From Paraphaeosphaeria minitans (taxonomy: Eukaryota; Ascomycota; Dothideomycetes; Pleosporales; Didymosphaeriaceae), in NCBI GenBank assembly GCA_015832175.1, contig WJXW01000015.1, positions 744,001-808,000 on the forward strand: DNA of 64,000 bases. The letters run 5' to 3'. Each line of letters starts with the position of its first letter. Position 1 is the stretch's first letter. Below, piece after piece: positions 8,615 to 30,381 of this stretch. The notes beneath the pieces are model-generated. The model saw only the letters and a list, made by a program, of their open reading frames with translations, did no database searches and had not been told where the DNA came from. The position numbers and the translations under genes are program-made.

Positions 8615-9409
8615 TTAGCTGCCTTTCCCAAAGCTGAACCCTGACATTGTACCAGAGTTGTGGCCCACCTGAACACCAGTATTACCACTGCCTGAAAACA
8701 CGATGTGGTGCGACTGTCCAACACTCTCCGCAGCCTTCGTGATAGCCTGTTCTAACAATTTGTCCTGGGAGGCGGCAATTTCTCTCAACGCAGAGATGCT
8801 TTCGCCTTCTCCAATGGCGGATACTTCGATGTCGCAGAGGTCCCGCTGGGACTGCTGAGTGGCGGGGAAAAGGCCGTCTAAGTCGTTGACCAACTCGGTG
8901 ATGTCCTCAATCAGTCGTCTGAACTGTTTCTCTTGATACAATGCCCACTTGGCCTTCTGCCGTAAGCCAGCCCGGTTCTGGCGCTCGATGGCTAGCTGGC
9001 GCAGTTTCTCATGGAGCTTCGCCATTGCCGGATCCAGATCTGTCTGCGGATCGTATACCACAAGGCTGACGCCCTGAGGCTCTTTTCGGCTCCTATATTT
9101 GTTCGACACGCCTTCAGCTTCCGCGAACAGTTCTTCGATCTGGCCCAGCAAAGCTGCAGCGTGCTTGACGTTTGCCACCGACCCAAAATGCCCCTGAAGA
9201 GATACCGTATCTCGAACATCATCATCCAGACCTAGAGACTTGCCCCACCGCGACAAGCGGAGTCTTGCGTTGTCTAGTTTGAGCTGACTGGTTTGGAAGC
9301 TCTTTCCGAATGAACGGCCGAGCTGGACGAATTCGAAGCACTCGACTGTGTTGTTGAAGAGGCCAGCGAGGGCGACAACGCCGGCCACAAGACCGGCGGC
9401 CTCTGCCAT
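8615..9409 (-). CDS. HeLo-domain (HET-S-like) protein with C-terminal amyloid-type motif
   Basis: A single-exon gene of 264 aa. Residues 1-60 closely follow the HeLo pattern of Podospora HET-S: AGLVAGVVALAGLFNN, ECFEFVQLGRSFG, then a segment of the QLKLDNARLRLSRWG type. The predicted fold is the helical HeLo bundle (about 1-220), which in HET-S and relatives inserts into membranes and causes programmed cell death when templated. The C-terminal ~27 residues are Gly/Asn/Ser-rich with the spaced pattern FxGxGNxGxQxGxNxG, not the two-repeat HRAM of HET-s; it resembles the sigma-class motif of fungal amyloid signalling. The NLR gene on the other strand carries the same motif at its N-terminus. ATG 9409 is chosen because HeLo proteins start just before the hydrophobic helix; an upstream in-frame ATG at 9475 adds 22 residues without similarity. 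Expected role: membrane-acting executioner in incompatibility or immunity. Confidence 0.88.
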   Translation of the reverse strand: MAEAAGLVAGVVALAGLFNNTVECFEFVQLGRSFGKSFQTSQLKLDNARLRLSRWGKSLGLDDDVRDTVSLQGHFGSVANVKHAAALLGQIEELFAEAEGVSNKYRSRKEPQGVSLVVYDPQTDLDPAMAKLHEKLRQLAIERQNRAGLRQKAKWALYQEKQFRRLIEDITELVNDLDGLFPATQQSQRDLCDIEVSAIGEGESISALREIAASQDKLLEQAITKAAESVGQSHHIVFSGSGNTGVQVGHNSGTMSGFSFGKGS

Positions 9410-9681
9410 GTTGGTCCGCTGAAGTGAAGACGGAACAAGGGCAGAGATACGGATGCACTTCTGCTTGACGCTCACTTGTGACCTGAGGTACTAAGGCAGC
9501 AGTAGCGGTGGGGACGAGTGGACGTAACTCTTGCACAGGCGCGCGATCGCAGGGTGCTCATTAAAGAACGTGCCAGCGGCTCAGCCGAGGCTGGCGCCTC
9601 AGCCTCATGCGTGAGAGTAGCTGTGCCGCTTCGCAAAGCCTGCAACAACGCGCAAACTCAATCGCTGTCACGTACAGCATA
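9410..9681. promoter_or_regulatory. Shared bidirectional promoter of the HeLo/NLR pair
   Basis: 272 bp separate the two divergent start codons and must hold both promoters. No specific binding site was recognised. The arrangement would allow co-regulation of receptor and effector. Confidence 0.55.
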
Positions 9682-11867
9682 ATGGCTCACTCTAGCATCA
9701 CCACTACGTTTACAGGCCACGGAAACGAGGGAATGCAAATTGGATACAACTCTGGCTCTATCCACATCGCTGCACCCGGCAAGTGCCCGCCAACTTTGAC
9801 CCACCTTGCGTTAACTAATCGCGCTTCTCTTCATAGCACGTCCCGAGACACCACCGCAACCCTCGTGCTTCGTGCCGTTCCCTCGCGATGCAGACTTTGT
9901 CGACCGCGGCACGCTGCTCGACCAGATCCGCGAACGATGCTCTGCGCCAGCATCGCGAGGAGCGCTGGTGGGCCTCGGCGGTGTGGGGTAAGTTTGGCGG
10001 AAGATTCTTAGGTTAACGTAGGAAGTCGCAGCTAGCCATCGAGCACTGCTACCGCACCGCCGAGCAGTCGCCGGAGACGTGGGTGTTCTGGGCGCACGCC
10101 AGCAATACAGCGCGACTCGAGCAGAGCTTCCGCGAGATCGCCGAGCATGTCAAGGTTCGCGGGCGCAAGGACCCGCACGCAGATGTGTTCAGGATGGTGC
10201 ACGACTGGCTGCGCGACGCGAATAATGGGCGGTGGCTATTAGTGTTAGACAACGCTGACGATGCTGCTGTGCTTTCTCAGGCAGACGGCGGCGGCGGCAG
10301 CGCTCTCCAACAGCATCTGTCGAGGTATCTGCCCTCAAGCAGGCACGGCTCCGTCCTGGTGACGAGCCGGACAAAGCGCGCGGCGAGGCAGGTCGTGGAA
10401 GAGAGCGACATTATACCGATAGAGCCGATGCACAATGCGGCTGCACACGCTCTGCTCCGCAAGAAGCTAGGCAGCACAAAAGAGGAAGATAGCAGCATTG
10501 TTCAGCTCGCGACGACGCTCGATCACATGCCACTTGCTCTCGTGCAGGCAGCAGCATACATTCGAGAACGAGCGCCGCGATGCTCAGTGCGGCAGTACCT
10601 AGAGGAGTATCGGCAGAGCGACAGCAGGAAGACAAGCCTGCTGAACAGGGGGGCGGGCCATCTTCGCCGAGACGAGTCAGCCAGCAACTCGGTCCTTGTA
10701 ACATGGCAGATCTCGTTCGACCACATACGGAGCACAAGACAGTCAGCAGCAGACCTGCTGTCACTGATGAGCTTCTTCGACCGACAGGGGATCCAGGAAG
10801 CTCTGCTCCGACGCCAGAGCAACACAGCGGCCGAACGCGGGTTGGCTGTGCAGTTGGACGACGGGTTTGAAGACGATGTGCTGGCGCTACGAGACTACTC
10901 GTTCATCACAGTGACTAGAGATGCGAGCACGTTTGAGATGCACAGCCTAGTGCAGCTAGCGACGCGTACATGGTTGGAGAACGAAGGGCAGCTCGAGAAG
11001 TGGAGGAAGCAGTTCATTTCCAACCTTTGCGCGGAGCTGCCGACAGCAGAGCACAAGAACTGGGAGAAGTGCCAGGCGCTGTTCCCGCATGCACGAGCGG
11101 CATTCGCACAGCGGCCACATGATAGCGAGTCATTGAAAGAGTGGGCACTGTTGCTGTACAAGGCGGCATGGTACGCGTGGCAACGAGGCAGAGCAGGCGA
11201 GGCAGAGCAGATGTCAGTGATGTCGATGCAGGTCAGGAGCGAGGTGCTTGGGAAAGAGCATGCGCAGACGTTGACGAGCGTGGAGATGGTGGGAATAGCT
11301 AAGGAGTTTGGGGGCAAGTACGGAGAGGCGGAGGCGATGCACAGACAGACGCTGGCGCGGAGGGAGAAGGTGCTGGGGCATGAGCACCCAGACACGCTGG
11401 GAAGCATGAACAACTTGGCAGGAGTGCTAGGCAGCCAGGGCAAGTACGAAGAGGCGGAGGCGATGTACAGACAGACGCTGGCGCGGATGGAAAAGGTGTT
11501 GGGGCATGAGCATCCATCCACGCTGGGAAGCATGCACAACCTAGCACGAGTGCTAGGCAGCCAGGGCAAGTACGAAGAGGCGGAAGCGATGCACAGACAG
11601 ACGCTGGCGCGGAAGGAGAAGGTGCTGGGGCATAAGCATCCAGACACGCTGGGAAGCATGAACAACTTGGCAGGAGTGCTGGGCAGTCAGGGCAAGTACG
11701 AAGAGGCGGAGGCAATGTACAGACAGACGCTGGCGCGGTATGAGAAGGTACTAGGGCTTGAGCATCCAGACACACTAGGGAGCATGAACAACCTGCACAT
11801 GAAGCGCCCGCACGCTACAATCCGCCCGTGCGGGCAAACTCTCTGTGCGGTCGATTCAACCACATAG
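9682..11867 (+). CDS. NB-ARC/TPR NLR receptor with N-terminal amyloid-type motif
   Basis: Three exons (9682-9778, 9837-9987, 10022-11867) give 697 aa. Intron 1 uses a GC donor (GCAAGT) and ttaactaat before the acceptor; intron 2 is only 34 nt (GTAAGT...CGTAG). Together they restore RPETPPQPSCFVPFPRD and the P-loop VGLGGVGKS. Order: motif GNxGxQxGxNxGSI (about 12-26), NB-ARC with Walker A (~85), Walker B WLLVLDNADD (~155), SVLVTSRT (~190), MPLALVQAAAY (~240) and an MHS-type motif in FEMHSLVQLATRTWL (~375), then TPR repeats of 42 aa. Fungal NLRs of this type bind a ligand, oligomerise and template folding of a partner through the N-terminal motif; the divergent HeLo gene has the same motif. The last TPR breaks off after NNL and is followed by about 22 unrelated residues, so an insertion seems to have cut the repeat domain. 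The 34-nt intron is unusually short and needs RNA evidence. Confidence 0.85.
11305..11797 (+). repeat. Near-identical 126-bp TPR-coding tandem repeats
   Basis: About four copies of a 126-bp unit coding for a 42-aa TPR of the kinesin-light-chain/nephrocystin type (GKYEEAEAM(H/Y)RQTLAR, then EKVLGHEHPDTLGSMNNLA). Copies differ by few bases, so they are homogenised at DNA level, as reported for repeat domains of fungal incompatibility NLRs. Confidence 0.9.
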
Positions 11868-12085
11868 CCAGTTTGACCGTAGCGCGAACGCCCGCACGTC
11901 GAAACAGCCCGTGCCCGACAATCCCGTGCGGTCCATAAAGCCGCGCCCCTCTTTTGTTCCCTGCAGAATGCGCCCGCACTCGCTGAATGCCTATGCGGGA
12001 ATCGCCCGTGCACTCTAAAACGCCGTTCGCAGTGGGTTACACCACAAAACACGGCTACATAGGAACCTAGTGGGCAGCTTCGCAA
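11798..12085. repeat. GC-rich insertion with repeated GCCCGYRC motifs
   Basis: The TPR homology ends at about 11797. The next ~230 bp carry roughly ten copies of gcccg(c/t)(a/g)c on either strand, including the palindrome gcccgtgcgggc. The far end (about 12035-12080) is related, on the opposite strand, to 25738-25790: both read cactaggttcctatgt, then gccgtgt and ttgtg. It looks like a dispersed non-coding repeat that truncated the NLR repeat domain. Confidence 0.55.
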
Positions 12086-13611
12086 GTCAGGGAACGTATT
12101 TCAACCCTAATAGCTCGAAAGCAAGCTAGCATATACGTGGAAGGCACACTAGGGGAGACTAAAGGTATTGCACCCGCAAACGTAATTAAGGACCAAAAAC
12201 ACAGGCGCAGATACAAACGGAGATGTGTTGGTGTTCGACTCGGGGAAGAGTGACCAGGTCCGAATCTACCTCGGCTCGATGTCAGCCAATCGTTCCTCAG
12301 TATGAACCGGATCTGTGTCCTGCTGCGAACGACGTCTTTGAGGATTGCCGTTCCTGGTATACTGGACATGTGGCCTCCAGCTGCCTTGACCGGACCTTCA
12401 CTGCGTAGGCCTCAATTGGGTGGCAGATGTCTGTGTCCCTGCGCGGTCAACGCGGCACCCGAGAAGGTCGTCCGACAGCCTCGATGCAAATAGCGGCAGG
12501 CAAGCCACCAATAGTGATGAGCAAGGAATAGTACTCGGTTGCAAGTATGTCTGGGGCACAGTACGTGAATCACAGCATTAGACAGGTGAGCCACCAACAA
12601 TCATGAGCAAGCGTTGCAGCCAAAATACGTCAGCGAACCTTAGCCGTAGTTTGCCGTCGACGTCATACCAAATTGCACGATTGAGAAGAGTATGTCAAGG
12701 CTCGCAAGGGAAGATGAATACATTACTGAGCGTCACGTTGCAATGAATGAACAACAGGACGTCTATACTCACGCATTGTCTAGCTTTGCCAAATTCATTC
12801 GAATATTGTGGAGCAAACGACCAAGTCTGGGAACTCCACATAGCGGCGCTGTCGGTGGCGGAGCAGCTCTGACTTTAGTGGAGCGCTCCTGAACAAGGCC
12901 AATCATTAGGACAGATTTGGCGCGCCTTGCTGCAGCACCGGGCGCCTCTGTCTCTTAATATGACGTGGAAATGGCTGAAACAAATATAGAAGAATTCAGA
13001 AATGGGAGACGAAAATTTAAAATGAACAACTGATTACGGTAGCCAACCTAGCGCTGCTCGCTAACCCTAGAAGCGAATCTCCAGTCTTCTTCAGGTTGAT
13101 ACTAGAATTGCATTTAGCTCCTAGTACGCGATTTCTTGATCTTCTGTCTAAAGCGGCGGATGATGTAACGAGACGTCGCAGCGTGGGACTTGCTTATTCT
13201 GTATTTGCTGAGGTCGTTAGTAGACTTCAATAGCGACACGGCGCGTCGGCTGAGACCCGGCAGAGAGCACAGAGGCACAGCCAATCAAGCGTAGCTAAAC
13301 CTTGGCATGAGGGCGCTTAATACCCAGGCACTAGCGCAGGTCTTTCCGCTAAATGGATTCTTCGTTTTAGAAATTAATATTTTAATTGCGAAAACTAAAA
13401 TCCAGAAGTTAAAATTGTAAGTTCTATAAGAGGATAAGGGGCTTTAAAGCCAAGTATATAAATCTCGCGCTGCCCCCCCTTAAATGCTCTATTAAATTTC
13501 CTCGATATTATTTCAGCACTATCTGGCTTCTTGAGCACTAAGCCGCTTACAGAATTAACTCACGTGATGCTAATTAGGTTAGCTCTGGAATAAATCTCGA
13601 AAGGCTGATAC
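12086..13611. other. Gene-poor, partly AT-rich sequence
   Basis: No family was recognised in the short open frames. From about 12950 the sequence becomes AT-rich (for example around 13365-13425, dominated by ttaat and aaaattaa words) and contains no long open frame. This fits transposon remains decayed by C-to-T mutation; the missing transposase of the older element at 17-19 kb could have been here. Confidence 0.4.
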
Positions 13612-13633: not shown

Positions 13634-15465
13634 ACGTGTTCCACCAGTCAGTGGGACACCCCAGTCAGTGGGACACACCACCAAAATCACGACGCGTCCT
13701 CCACCAAACACGCCATGCCGCCCACCCTAAACACTCAGCAATCCCAGAAGGAAGGCAGACTAGCTCTTTTAATATATGCGATTCAAAATAAGCAGGTTTC
13801 AAGTTACCGGCGCGCAGAGCGGCTCTATAATATCCCTCGATCAACACTCCATAGACGCGTTAGTGGTGCGCTACCTCAGGCTATTACCAACGCGCAGAAA
13901 CGGAAGCTACACCCTGTAGAGGAGCAGTCTCTTGTAGAGTGGATCCTAGACCTTGACCGACGAGGATTTCCACCCCAGATCATCGACGTACGACGGATGG
14001 CAGACAATCTACTCGCTGCGCGTGGCCAGAATCCTCCACCTCAGCCAGTAGGCAAGAACTGGGTATCCCGCTTTATTAAGACCCAGCCAGAGCTTCAGAC
14101 AAAGTGGGATAGGAAGCTCCATAGTCAGCGCGCGCTCTGTGAGGATCCGATCAAGATCTCTGCCTGGTATCAGCGCGTAGAGGAGACGCGCCAGGTGTAC
14201 GGTATACAGGATGGAGATACCTACAACGTTGATGAGACAGGGTTCATGATGGGGGTCGCTGCTTCATCTATGGTAGTCACCAGCGCAGACACTGTAGGCA
14301 GAGCTATACATATACAGCCAGGTAATCGAGACTGGGTCACAACAATTGAGGCTATTAACGCATCTGGCTGGAGCCTACCACCTCTTATTATCCTATCTGG
14401 CAAGCTCCACCAGGCCAGCTGGTATACAGGCCTACCTGCTGGCTGGGTACTCGCAGTTAGTGACAATGGCTGGACCACTGATCAGCTAGGGCTCGCCTGG
14501 CTAGAGCACTTCAACCGGCATACAGAGGCTCGTACAGTAGGCACCTATCGGCTGCTTATCCTAGATGGCCACAGCAGCCATGCTACACCTGAGTTCGATC
14601 AGTACTGTACAGAGCATAGGATAATCACCCTCTGTATGCCTGCGCATACAAGCCACCTCCTGCAGCCCCTTGATGTGAGCTGTTTCTCCCCACTTAAGGC
14701 AGCGTACGGAGGTGCGGTAGCTGAGCTCGCCCGCCAAGGTATCTTCCATATTGATAAGGAGGAGTTTCTCTCTCTCTACCCACGCGTACGGAGCTCTGTG
14801 TTTACAGAGCAGACTATCCAGAGTGGCTTTCGAGCGACTGGTCTTGTCCCTCCCTGTCCAGAGCGGGTCCTCTCATGCCTGACAGTGGTTAGGACCCCGT
14901 CACCACCAGGGACAGTAGCAGACGCTGAGGCGGTATGGACAGCGGAGACACCTCATACTACCCAGCAGCTTGAGCAGCAGGCACGGCTTGTACGGGATCG
15001 CCTCCAGAGACAGTCTCAGAGTCCTACAAGTCGAGCTATCGCCCAGATTGTCAAGAGCTGTCAGCTAGCGATAAATTCAGCAACAATCTTAGCAGAGGAG
15101 AATAGGAAGCTCCGCGCTGCTAACCACCGCCGGAGACAAAGGCAGGATAGAAGGCGGCAGTATATTGCCTCTGGGGGTGCTCTGCAGGCTGAGGAAGGCC
15201 GTAGGCTAGCTGCAGAGGCAGAAAGGGTGCTCCAGCAGGTAGAGCAGGAGGACCGTGTAGGACGGCCACGAGCACCACCAACATGCAGTAATTGCCATGA
15301 GCAAGGTCATAAGCGAAATCAATGTACCCAGAGATTGTAGCTATCATATAAATCTATCTGTAGCTTTTTTAACTATCGCGTTGTTGAGCTATCGTGTAGG
15401 AAGCTGCATCGATTTTGGTGGGGTGTCCCACTGACTGGGGTGTCCCACTGACTGGTGGAACACGT
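13634..15465 (+). mobile_element. Fot1/pogo-type transposon, intact (copy A)
   Basis: An 1832-bp element. The left end starts acgtgttccaccagtcag and the right end is its inverse. Each inverted repeat holds two direct copies of cagtcagtgggacac, probable transposase-binding sites. It is flanked by TA at 13632-13633 and 15466-15467, the target duplication of the Tc1/mariner/pogo superfamily. It contains one uninterrupted transposase gene and may be mobile. Its right-hand TA is also the left-hand TA of the next element. Confidence 0.92.
13715..15340 (+). CDS. Pogo/Fot1 DDE transposase
   Basis: A 541-aa single-exon transposase. N-terminus: a psq-type helix-turn-helix (SYRRAERLYNIPRSTLHRR, about 28-50), then a CENP-B-type DNA-binding region (WILDLDRRGFPPQ to LCEDPIKISAWY). 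The DDE_1 core has Asp in NVDETGFMMG, Asp in LLILDGHSSHATP and Asp in LLQPLDVSCFSPLK, the D-D-D arrangement of pogo transposases. The tail is basic and ends with a CCHC zinc knuckle, CSNCHEQGHKRNQC, seen in a subset of fungal pogo transposases. All catalytic residues are present and there is no stop. It excises and reinserts DNA at TA sites in the nucleus. Confidence 0.95.
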   Translation: MPPTLNTQQSQKEGRLALLIYAIQNKQVSSYRRAERLYNIPRSTLHRRVSGALPQAITNAQKRKLHPVEEQSLVEWILDLDRRGFPPQIIDVRRMADNLLAARGQNPPPQPVGKNWVSRFIKTQPELQTKWDRKLHSQRALCEDPIKISAWYQRVEETRQVYGIQDGDTYNVDETGFMMGVAASSMVVTSADTVGRAIHIQPGNRDWVTTIEAINASGWSLPPLIILSGKLHQASWYTGLPAGWVLAVSDNGWTTDQLGLAWLEHFNRHTEARTVGTYRLLILDGHSSHATPEFDQYCTEHRIITLCMPAHTSHLLQPLDVSCFSPLKAAYGGAVAELARQGIFHIDKEEFLSLYPRVRSSVFTEQTIQSGFRATGLVPPCPERVLSCLTVVRTPSPPGTVADAEAVWTAETPHTTQQLEQQARLVRDRLQRQSQSPTSRAIAQIVKSCQLAINSATILAEENRKLRAANHRRRQRQDRRRQYIASGGALQAEEGRRLAAEAERVLQQVEQEDRVGRPRAPPTCSNCHEQGHKRNQCTQRL

Positions 15466-28810: not shown

Positions 28811-29938
28811 CTACTCCTCAAAGGCAAAGTCTGTCTCAAGCCTCAGCTGATCATGGAGACCATCTAGCACTGTCTGCTCCATATAGAGACCTCCAGCAGC
28901 GTGTTGAAAGTGCTTTCTTGCAAATCTATCACAGCCACTTTCTGCAATTGCTGCCCGCAAGAAGTCGCCAGAGCCACTATCTCCTGGAAAACGTGTCCGT
29001 ATATAGCAGTAGTTACGCCGGATCCATGCCTTCAAGACGGCAAAGGTAAGCTCAATAGGATTGTAGTCAGGAGAGTACGGCGGCAGGTATCGTACTACAA
29101 ACCCAGCGTCGCGGAGTAGACGTGGCACGTCGTTGTTCGTGTGGATAGAGACATTGTCAAGTACAATAACAACTGGGCGTCCACCAAATTTGACTCGTAG
29201 AGCAGGTATAAGCTCCAGTTCCACCCACTCAATAAACTCCTCCCGGCTGTAGTAGCCCTCCTTGATGCCTGTACACGGCAAATACCCATCAACAGTATAC
29301 GCTGGCAAGATGGCCCAAGTCTTACCACGCTTTATGTCTTGCGTATAGCGCATCTCTTCACCGATAGGAGCGTAGGCGTGGTGCCTCCATCCAGTTTTCT
29401 CGTTGAAGATAGATTCATCAAGGAATACAACATCCTCTGCAGCATACCGCCTCATAGAATCGCGGTAGTAACCACGGAGCTCCTCATTGCGGTCAATGGC
29501 GTATGGGCGCAGCGTTTTACGACTCCAGCCCTCTCTCTTCAACAGGCGACTGATAGTGGACTGAGTGATAAAGATGCCACGCTCAACGCTCAACCACCAT
29601 ACCATCTCGTCCTGATACATCCAGCCATGTCGTAGTAGCTCACCGCGGAGAGCAAGTGAGTCTTCCTTTGCTAGTTTTGGAGGACGCCCAAGCTTGCCAG
29701 TAAGAGCCTTCCGTACACAACCAGTAGTTATGATGTTATTATAGACATTGCGTACAGCATGTCTTGAACAACCAACTTGGTCTGCAATCTCCTGCTCATG
29801 CCAACCTAGGCAGAGATACCGATTAATTTCTAGCCTCTTTAAGTTTGTCAGACCATGGGCAGCGTAGAAGGGCCCAGCAGGAGGTGGTTCAAGGGCTGAT
29901 AGAGATGTCCGAACGCCGTGGGCGCGATGGGCGGCCAT
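28811..29938 (-). CDS. Tc1/mariner-type DDE transposase
   Basis: 375 aa, single coding exon. The N-terminus has homeodomain-like helix-turn-helix motifs: RYLCLGWHEQEIADQVGCSR and LGRPPKLAKED, then a winged region (ITQSTISRLLKREGW). The DDE_3-type core has VVFLDESIFNEKTGW (first Asp), VVIVLDNVSIHTNND (second Asp) and LPPYSPDYNPIELTF (Glu after the SPDYNP box). All three catalytic residues are present. Translation probably starts at 29938, after the 5'UTR intron carried by the inverted repeat; an ATG-like codon further upstream would lie in leader sequence. It moves the element by cut-and-paste at TA. Confidence 0.92.
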   Translation of the reverse strand: MAAHRAHGVRTSLSALEPPPAGPFYAAHGLTNLKRLEINRYLCLGWHEQEIADQVGCSRHAVRNVYNNIITTGCVRKALTGKLGRPPKLAKEDSLALRGELLRHGWMYQDEMVWWLSVERGIFITQSTISRLLKREGWSRKTLRPYAIDRNEELRGYYRDSMRRYAAEDVVFLDESIFNEKTGWRHHAYAPIGEEMRYTQDIKRGKTWAILPAYTVDGYLPCTGIKEGYYSREEFIEWVELELIPALRVKFGGRPVVIVLDNVSIHTNNDVPRLLRDAGFVVRYLPPYSPDYNPIELTFAVLKAWIRRNYCYIRTRFPGDSGSGDFLRAAIAESGCDRFARKHFQHAAGGLYMEQTVLDGLHDQLRLETDFAFEE

Positions 29939-30381
29939 CTGGCGCGTTGGTGACAACTGCAACACCAAGAAAGTCAGTATAGCCTCTATGCGCGTGAATC
30001 TACGACCTCAACTTACCTGACCCGTAAACGGCGCGTGGGCGGGGCGGCGGGCGCGGCATCTACCAATTTCGACGCTCTATATAATTAGTGTGGTGGGGGG
30101 GAAAATCGACGATGCGCGCCAAGCTTTCCCAGGATTATGCATCTAATAGATGCTCGGCGGAACCGGCAGATCCACTCCAATCTCACCCATGTCAAGATCC
30201 TGAGCGCATGCTGAAAAGTAGCGCAAAGGATGATCCTCTGTTGTCAGGACAGTCATTCGCCTATACAATACTGACCCTTCGCAAACGCTCCTTGTATGCA
30301 GGTCAATAGTTCTTCAAACATGATTACAACATACTTAAAGGTGACCGCGCACATCAAATCCTCGACCATTTGACCATTTCG

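Follow-up and report, generated by a model that had tools for sequence, protein, structure and literature searches.

What is encoded by two genes that lie head to head in the genome of Paraphaeosphaeria minitans (Pleosporales, Didymosphaeriaceae), known as a mycoparasite, and do their products belong to one signalling system? The genes lie in a 64,000-nucleotide stretch of contig WJXW01000015.1 (assembly GCA_015832175.1, positions 744,001 to 808,000, forward strand), which we refer to as the window and in whose numbering coordinates are given; genome-wide coordinates carry a contig prefix. The gene on the minus strand codes for an effector with a HET-S-type HeLo domain, the gene on the plus strand for a NOD-like receptor (NLR) with an NB-ARC domain and TPR repeats, and one motif, assigned from its sequence to the PP (RHIM-like) class, occurs at the C-terminus of the effector and at the N-terminus of the receptor. 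We consider the locus to be, with a probability of roughly 0.85, a two-gene NLR/effector amyloid-signalling pair of the PP type, which would act in the four steps set out below. The features of the locus are listed here, with the basis of each in brackets.

8615..9409, minus strand: HeLo-PP effector gene, 264 residues, single open frame (open reading frame, Pfam, HET-s structure match)
8639..8713, minus strand: effector C-terminal PP motif, core FSGSGNTGVQVGHNSGTM (six-frame genome search: PF17046 at C15:752639-752713, 33.6 bits)
9410..9681, no strand: intergenic stretch of 272 bp that separates the start codons of the two genes (putative divergent promoters)
9682..9778, plus strand: NLR exon 1 with the N-terminal PP motif, core FTGHGNEGMQIGYNSGSI (splice model; PF17046 at residues 4-28)
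9779..9836, plus strand: predicted NLR intron 1, GC-AG (splice model by hand)
9837..9987, plus strand: NLR exon 2, reaching the Walker A glycines (splice model; alignments with P0126 and P0130)
9988..10021, plus strand: predicted NLR intron 2, GT-AG, short (34 bp), inside Walker A (splice model)
10022..11867, plus strand: NLR exon 3, coding for NB-ARC, DUF7779 and the TPR repeats; its final ~22 codons fall in a repeat (Pfam, relatives)

A shared motif and its conservation

The two proteins are alike at the ends that carry the motif. The best gapless 18-residue alignment between the effector end and the NLR end scores 64 (BLOSUM62), a value reached by 0/2000 shuffles of the NLR end (maximum 44); elsewhere the scores go no higher than 14 (HeLo windows that start before residue 191) and 15 (NLR windows that start after residue 41). 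In a six-frame search of the 47.45-Mb genome (30 contigs), which an intron-split gene could escape, PF17046 matched three places at E<=1, and the two above the cut-off are the effector end and the NLR end. The third, C8:967838, scored 21.3 bits, below the cut-off, in a 35-residue frame where no gene was seen, and was taken as a chance match. No third partner, such as a PP-bearing lipase, was found above the PF17046 cut-off genome-wide, with the limit that introns could hide one.

Several points proposed by the first-pass annotation held up: the HeLo and NLR domain calls (now PF14479, and PF00931 with TPR), the divergent head-to-head layout, the 272-bp spacing between ATG 9409 (minus) and ATG 9682 (plus), and a motif common to both ends, at the HeLo C-terminus and the NLR N-terminus. 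The profile comparison it had put forward, which could have separated the two segments, placed both in the single family PF17046. Its suggested survey for further HeLo genes with the motif came back empty, as none of the five other HeLo places (six genome-wide) carries PF17046 above the cut-off. These five lie at C2:4394934, C14:186381, C12:1734249, C11:1574187 and C17:655640, and three of them have stops in the matched frame. The 272-bp intergenic region itself contains none of the strings CCAAT, ATTGG, TATAA and TTATA.

Among relatives the combination of HeLo domain and motif is widely kept. With the effector as query, 349 proteins were retrieved at E<=1e-5, and the best 120 of them, query included, were examined: PF14479 and PF17046 occur together in 110 and PF14479 alone in 10, and a strict motif pattern matches 99, the 21 misses including truncated proteins and variants with few substitutions. 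Their sources include Alternaria, Pyrenophora, Paraphoma, Ophiobolus and Didymella, all members of the Pleosporales, as well as Cenococcum and a Mollisiaceae. Twenty of these 120 homologues (this locus included) appear, by an exact match of contig size, to share a contig with a listed NLR homologue, and 14 offset controls for the same comparison give 0 or 1. Because contigs are shared in this way, four of them being as short as 7,996 to 30,509 bases, and because the HeLo and NLR locus tags in Kalmusia are consecutive (000048/000049), the linkage looks old and stable.

Two further patterns were observed among the homologues. Proteins P0175 (889 residues) and P0035 (421 residues) carry TPR repeats, HeLo and PP in one frame with the same junction, and could be fused tandem NLR and effector genes, either real or produced by gene-caller read-through. 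The NLR relatives P0192, P0209, P0216, P0233 and others have a SFGDANAGFQAGIINGPV-like N-terminal pattern in place of the PP motif, a difference which, at the level of sequence, suggests motif swapping on one receptor backbone.

The effector and receptor genes

The effector frame runs uninterrupted on the minus strand from the ATG at 9409 to the stop at 8615. A Pfam scan of its 264 residues assigned residues 6-205 to the HET-S-type HeLo family PF14479 (E 2.2e-54) and residues 233-257 to PF17046 (E 4.4e-7, 30.1 bits for the whole protein; cut-off 23.2), and at E<=1 it returned no family beyond these two, the HELLP-type HeLo-like domain PF17111 being absent. Strict membership in the HELLP group was ruled out, the effector domain being HeLo (PF14479) and not HeLo-like (PF17111). 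The solved structures nearest to the effector by sequence are HET-s/HET-S HeLo domains, from E 2.6e-37 (2wvn) to 3.5e-33.

The fold was predicted with AlphaFold2 from a 46-sequence alignment. In the best model, with a mean predicted local distance difference test score (pLDDT) of 73.2, residues 2-231 are helical and the chain is unconfident from residue 231 onward, pLDDT falling below 50 over 231-240 and 243-264. A Foldseek search with this model returned, at E<=0.001, only four chains, of 2wvn, 2wvo and 2wvq, with template modelling scores of 0.67-0.70 by query. As modelled, the layout probably represents a folded HeLo domain followed by an unstructured tail. Hydrophobicity in 19-residue windows peaks in the one that begins with residue 1 (mean 1.65); among windows starting beyond residue 30 the highest mean is 0.77. 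Across the aligned sequences E3 is kept in 46/46 and residue 23 is acidic in 46/46, and in the motif G240, N243, G245, Q247 and G253 are invariant in all 46.

The receptor gene begins with the ATG at 9682 on the plus strand. Its span had been given correctly by the earlier annotation; our hand-made splice model adds two short introns and yields a product of 697 residues, with no internal stop and with the Walker A sequence GLGGVGKS restored by splicing. The frame of exon 2 agrees with relatives P0126 and P0130, which align at 84% and 78% over 9815-9964. Across the intron 1 junction, the alignment of the first 140 residues of the joined protein with P0127 is gapless and that with P0134 needs a single gap, and the Walker A junction at intron 2 is gapless in 4/4 relatives compared (P0126, P0130, P0127 and P0134). 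Among the best 25 of 27 Pfam families matched are NB-ARC (PF00931, 5.4e-7), DUF7779 (PF25000, 3.5e-10) and the TPR families PF13424 (8e-66) and PF13374, and five stretches each of PF13424 and PF13374 correspond to about five TPR units. PF17046 matches residues 4-28 (E 6.2e-5, 23.2 bits) in the whole-protein scan; in a scan restricted to the first 67 residues it reaches 27.7 bits (cut-off 23.2) and is the sole family at E<=10, and the six-frame genome search recovers it at 27.6 bits (C15:753688-753768).

A public P. minitans protein, P0129, is encoded in the window, with two matching stretches at 100% and 99.8%. Its model joins exon 1 directly to exon 3, skipping window positions 9784-10019; because exon 2 is skipped, P0129 lacks the Walker A glycines, which the model spliced from the window has.

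Proposed mechanism and its weighing

By analogy with HET-S/NWD2 and HELLP/PNT1, we infer that a mechanism of the HET-S/NWD2 type fits the locus best. A ligand would bind the TPR repeats, causing the NLR to oligomerise via NB-ARC; the oligomer would gather the N-terminal PP motifs and so nucleate an amyloid fold, which would serve as template for the HeLo protein's unfolded PP tail; and the HeLo domain would then free its N-terminal hydrophobic helix, enter the plasma membrane and kill the cell. The role of the TPR repeats in ligand binding, the amyloid templating, the attack on the membrane and the resulting death are each transferred to this locus from known systems. Signalling through PP motifs has been demonstrated for HELLP/PNT1 in Podospora anserina and for Chaetomium globosum genes expressed in P. 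anserina, according to the account in PMC7885112, and PP prions and HELLP-driven death are described from P. anserina, with partial cross-seeding with the human RIPK1/RIPK3 RHIMs (PMC7885112, PMC12881547).

Several results weigh against this interpretation. The AlphaFold2 confidence is moderate and uneven, the five models ranging in pLDDT from 73.2 to 38.5. Effector residue 33 is Ser, neither the His of active HET-S nor the Pro of inactive HET-s, and the 46 aligned sequences have T, N, S, A, K or D at this position, while none has Pro or His. In Podospora, as described in PMC3531502, it is H33 that marks the active form and P33 the inactive form, so residue 33, being Ser here, is not decisive for activity at this locus. 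The whole-protein PF17046 score of the NLR lies exactly at the Pfam cut-off. A search with the NLR returned 2596 proteins at E<=1e-10, and only 17 of the best 120 have a precomputed PF17046 call, the one in P0175 lying on its HeLo tail; the 120 include many partial proteins, some that show the motif without a call and some with another N-terminus. A count of PP motifs by regular expression (16 of the best 120) was discarded, since it misses visible motifs (in P0121, P0125 and P0127, among others) and many of the proteins are partial. The contig matches between HeLo and NLR homologues show one contig, not adjacency, and matched motif pairs show no greater likeness than mismatched ones (10.77 vs 10.60 of 18, p 0.23), so that pair-by-pair co-evolution was not seen in the 13 of the 20 contig-matched pairs compared, seven having been excluded for a partial protein or a missing motif; two of the excluded contigs also hold two NLRs. 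Lastly, the TPR array gives way to a repeat, and the receptor may be impaired.

This last point raises the question of whether the locus is a decaying copy, in which the TPR end of the receptor has been lost to the repeat, signalling is gone and the HeLo protein is left with no working activator. Similarity of the NLR to its relatives extends no further than 11795, and the rest of the window downstream holds no additional TPR match; since the repeat begins at ~11800, the last ~22 codons are repeat-derived and the TPR array may have been cut. The repeat (~11800-12250) has nine matches in the genome, itself included, and starts where the array stops; no convincing terminal repeats were found for it. 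Transposase frames lie close by, at 13706-15340 and 28814-30007, with DDE_1 and a Tc5-type helix-turn-helix (an open frame of 573 residues) and with DDE_3. The spliced NLR has no internal stop, however, the motif and the HeLo gene are intact, and about five TPR units are left, a number within the 4 to 9 that PMC4986451 tabulates across strains for PNT1 of P. anserina (Pa_5_8060). We consider decay unlikely, though the most probable of the alternatives, and continue to read the locus as a PP signalling pair.

The two ends could instead resemble each other by chance of composition and not interact at all, as both are short and Gly/Asn-rich and the receptor motif scores at the cut-off itself in the whole-protein scan. 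The shuffles preserved composition and none of the 2000 reached the observed score, the strict pattern recurs in those 99 of the best 120 of 349 HeLo homologues, the Gly, Asn and Gln positions are invariant in the 46 aligned sequences, and the only places above the cut-off in the genome are these two ends, all of which makes a chance likeness highly improbable.

The motif had at first been labelled sigma-like, implying a HeLo-sigma combination. Both motifs are rich in Gly, Asn and Gln, and PF17046 is named SesB after a sigma-locus protein, a link in name only: a 2025 paper gives PF17046 as 'PP (misnamed SesB)' and PF17106 as NACHT_sigma (PMC12261475). The 14 motif pieces compared (six effector, eight receptor) each have PF17046 as their sole Pfam match at E<=10, as does the NLR N-terminus, and the sigma profile PF17106 is absent among the matches of the effector, the NLR N-terminus and the 14 pieces. 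It also has 0 matches in the genome, in a search with no positive control above the cut-off. The sigma motif, which PMC3321046 describes as three-fold, with the patterns GxGxQFNxx and GGTQNINT, was not seen by eye in either end. The PP core is given as NxGxQxGxN (PMC9815663), PP being related to RHIM, and the 2012 consensus FxGx(x)NxGLQLxGxNxGxL is, as printed, one x longer than the sequences here (PMC3321046). Nor does the effector tail resemble that of HET-s, as it carries one PP copy and not two HET-s-type repeats; PF11558, the profile of those repeats, is absent among the effector matches and has 0 matches in the genome, a weak negative as no positive control scored above the cut-off. The sigma label was therefore dropped as barely credible, PF17046 being the PP profile and PF17106 being absent among the matches of both ends.

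Relation to known systems

The first-pass annotation had implied that a HeLo domain with a single motif other than the HET-s related amyloid motif (HRAM) was new. HeLo+PP proteins beside PP-NB-ARC-TPR proteins were described in 2012 from Arthroderma (PMC3321046), and in 2015 98 PP motifs, in single copies, were counted among 579 HeLo-related proteins, with HeLo, HeLo-like and SesA pooled (PMC4518210). Since the Arthroderma pairs and the PP counts are already in print, the architecture is known and its presence here is of low surprise. What is new is in the details of the locus: a public gene model from which the exon coding for the Walker A glycines is absent, and a TPR array that ends in a genomic repeat.

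The closest parallels come from Arthroderma otae and A. gypseum, where a gene for HeLo with a short C-terminal PP lies beside an NB-ARC/TPR gene of the STAND (signal transduction ATPases with numerous domains) type whose product bears the same motif at its N-terminus (PMC3321046); the present locus differs in species and in the repeat that ends its TPR array. HELLP/PNT1 of P. anserina and HELLP/SBP/PNT1 of C. globosum likewise have PP at the effector C-terminus and the NLR N-terminus and an NB-ARC-TPR receptor, and the P. anserina system is a two-gene cluster, as here; the effector there is HeLo-like (HELL), whereas here it is a HET-S-type HeLo (PMC7885112). The PP-bearing lipase of the three-gene C. 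globosum set was not found here, there being no further PF17046 match above the cut-off. HET-S/NWD2 of P. anserina shares the HeLo domain (the fold search gave 32% identity with 2wvo), an adjacent NLR and a common amyloid motif, but has two HET-s repeats and a NACHT-WD40 receptor in place of one PP copy and NB-ARC-TPR (PMC3531502, PMC7885112). The sigma locus sesA/sesB/het-eN of Nectria haematococca also has an amyloid-type motif common to NLR and effector ends, but there the motif is three-fold, the effectors are SesA and a lipase/esterase, and the receptor combines NACHT with ankyrin repeats (PMC3321046).

In the papers retrieved by our literature search, which stand for a part of the literature, no bench test of a HeLo domain with a PP motif was found: the tests of PP signalling concern HeLo-like effectors and a lipase only, and the tests of HeLo concern HET-s motifs only. 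A search for papers on P. minitans and heterokaryon incompatibility found none.

The locus leaves the known picture of fungal amyloid signalling unchanged. It contributes a clean PP pair from a dothideomycete, the sole pair found in that genome, and suggests that related fungi commonly carry HeLo+PP; the HeLo domain could also be tested here under a RHIM-like trigger. It is likely that Pleosporales and their neighbours keep a HET-S-type HeLo pore-former, and not a HeLo-like one, under RHIM-like PP control, as one conserved two-gene death switch, whose receptor in this strain of P. minitans may have been shortened by a repeat.

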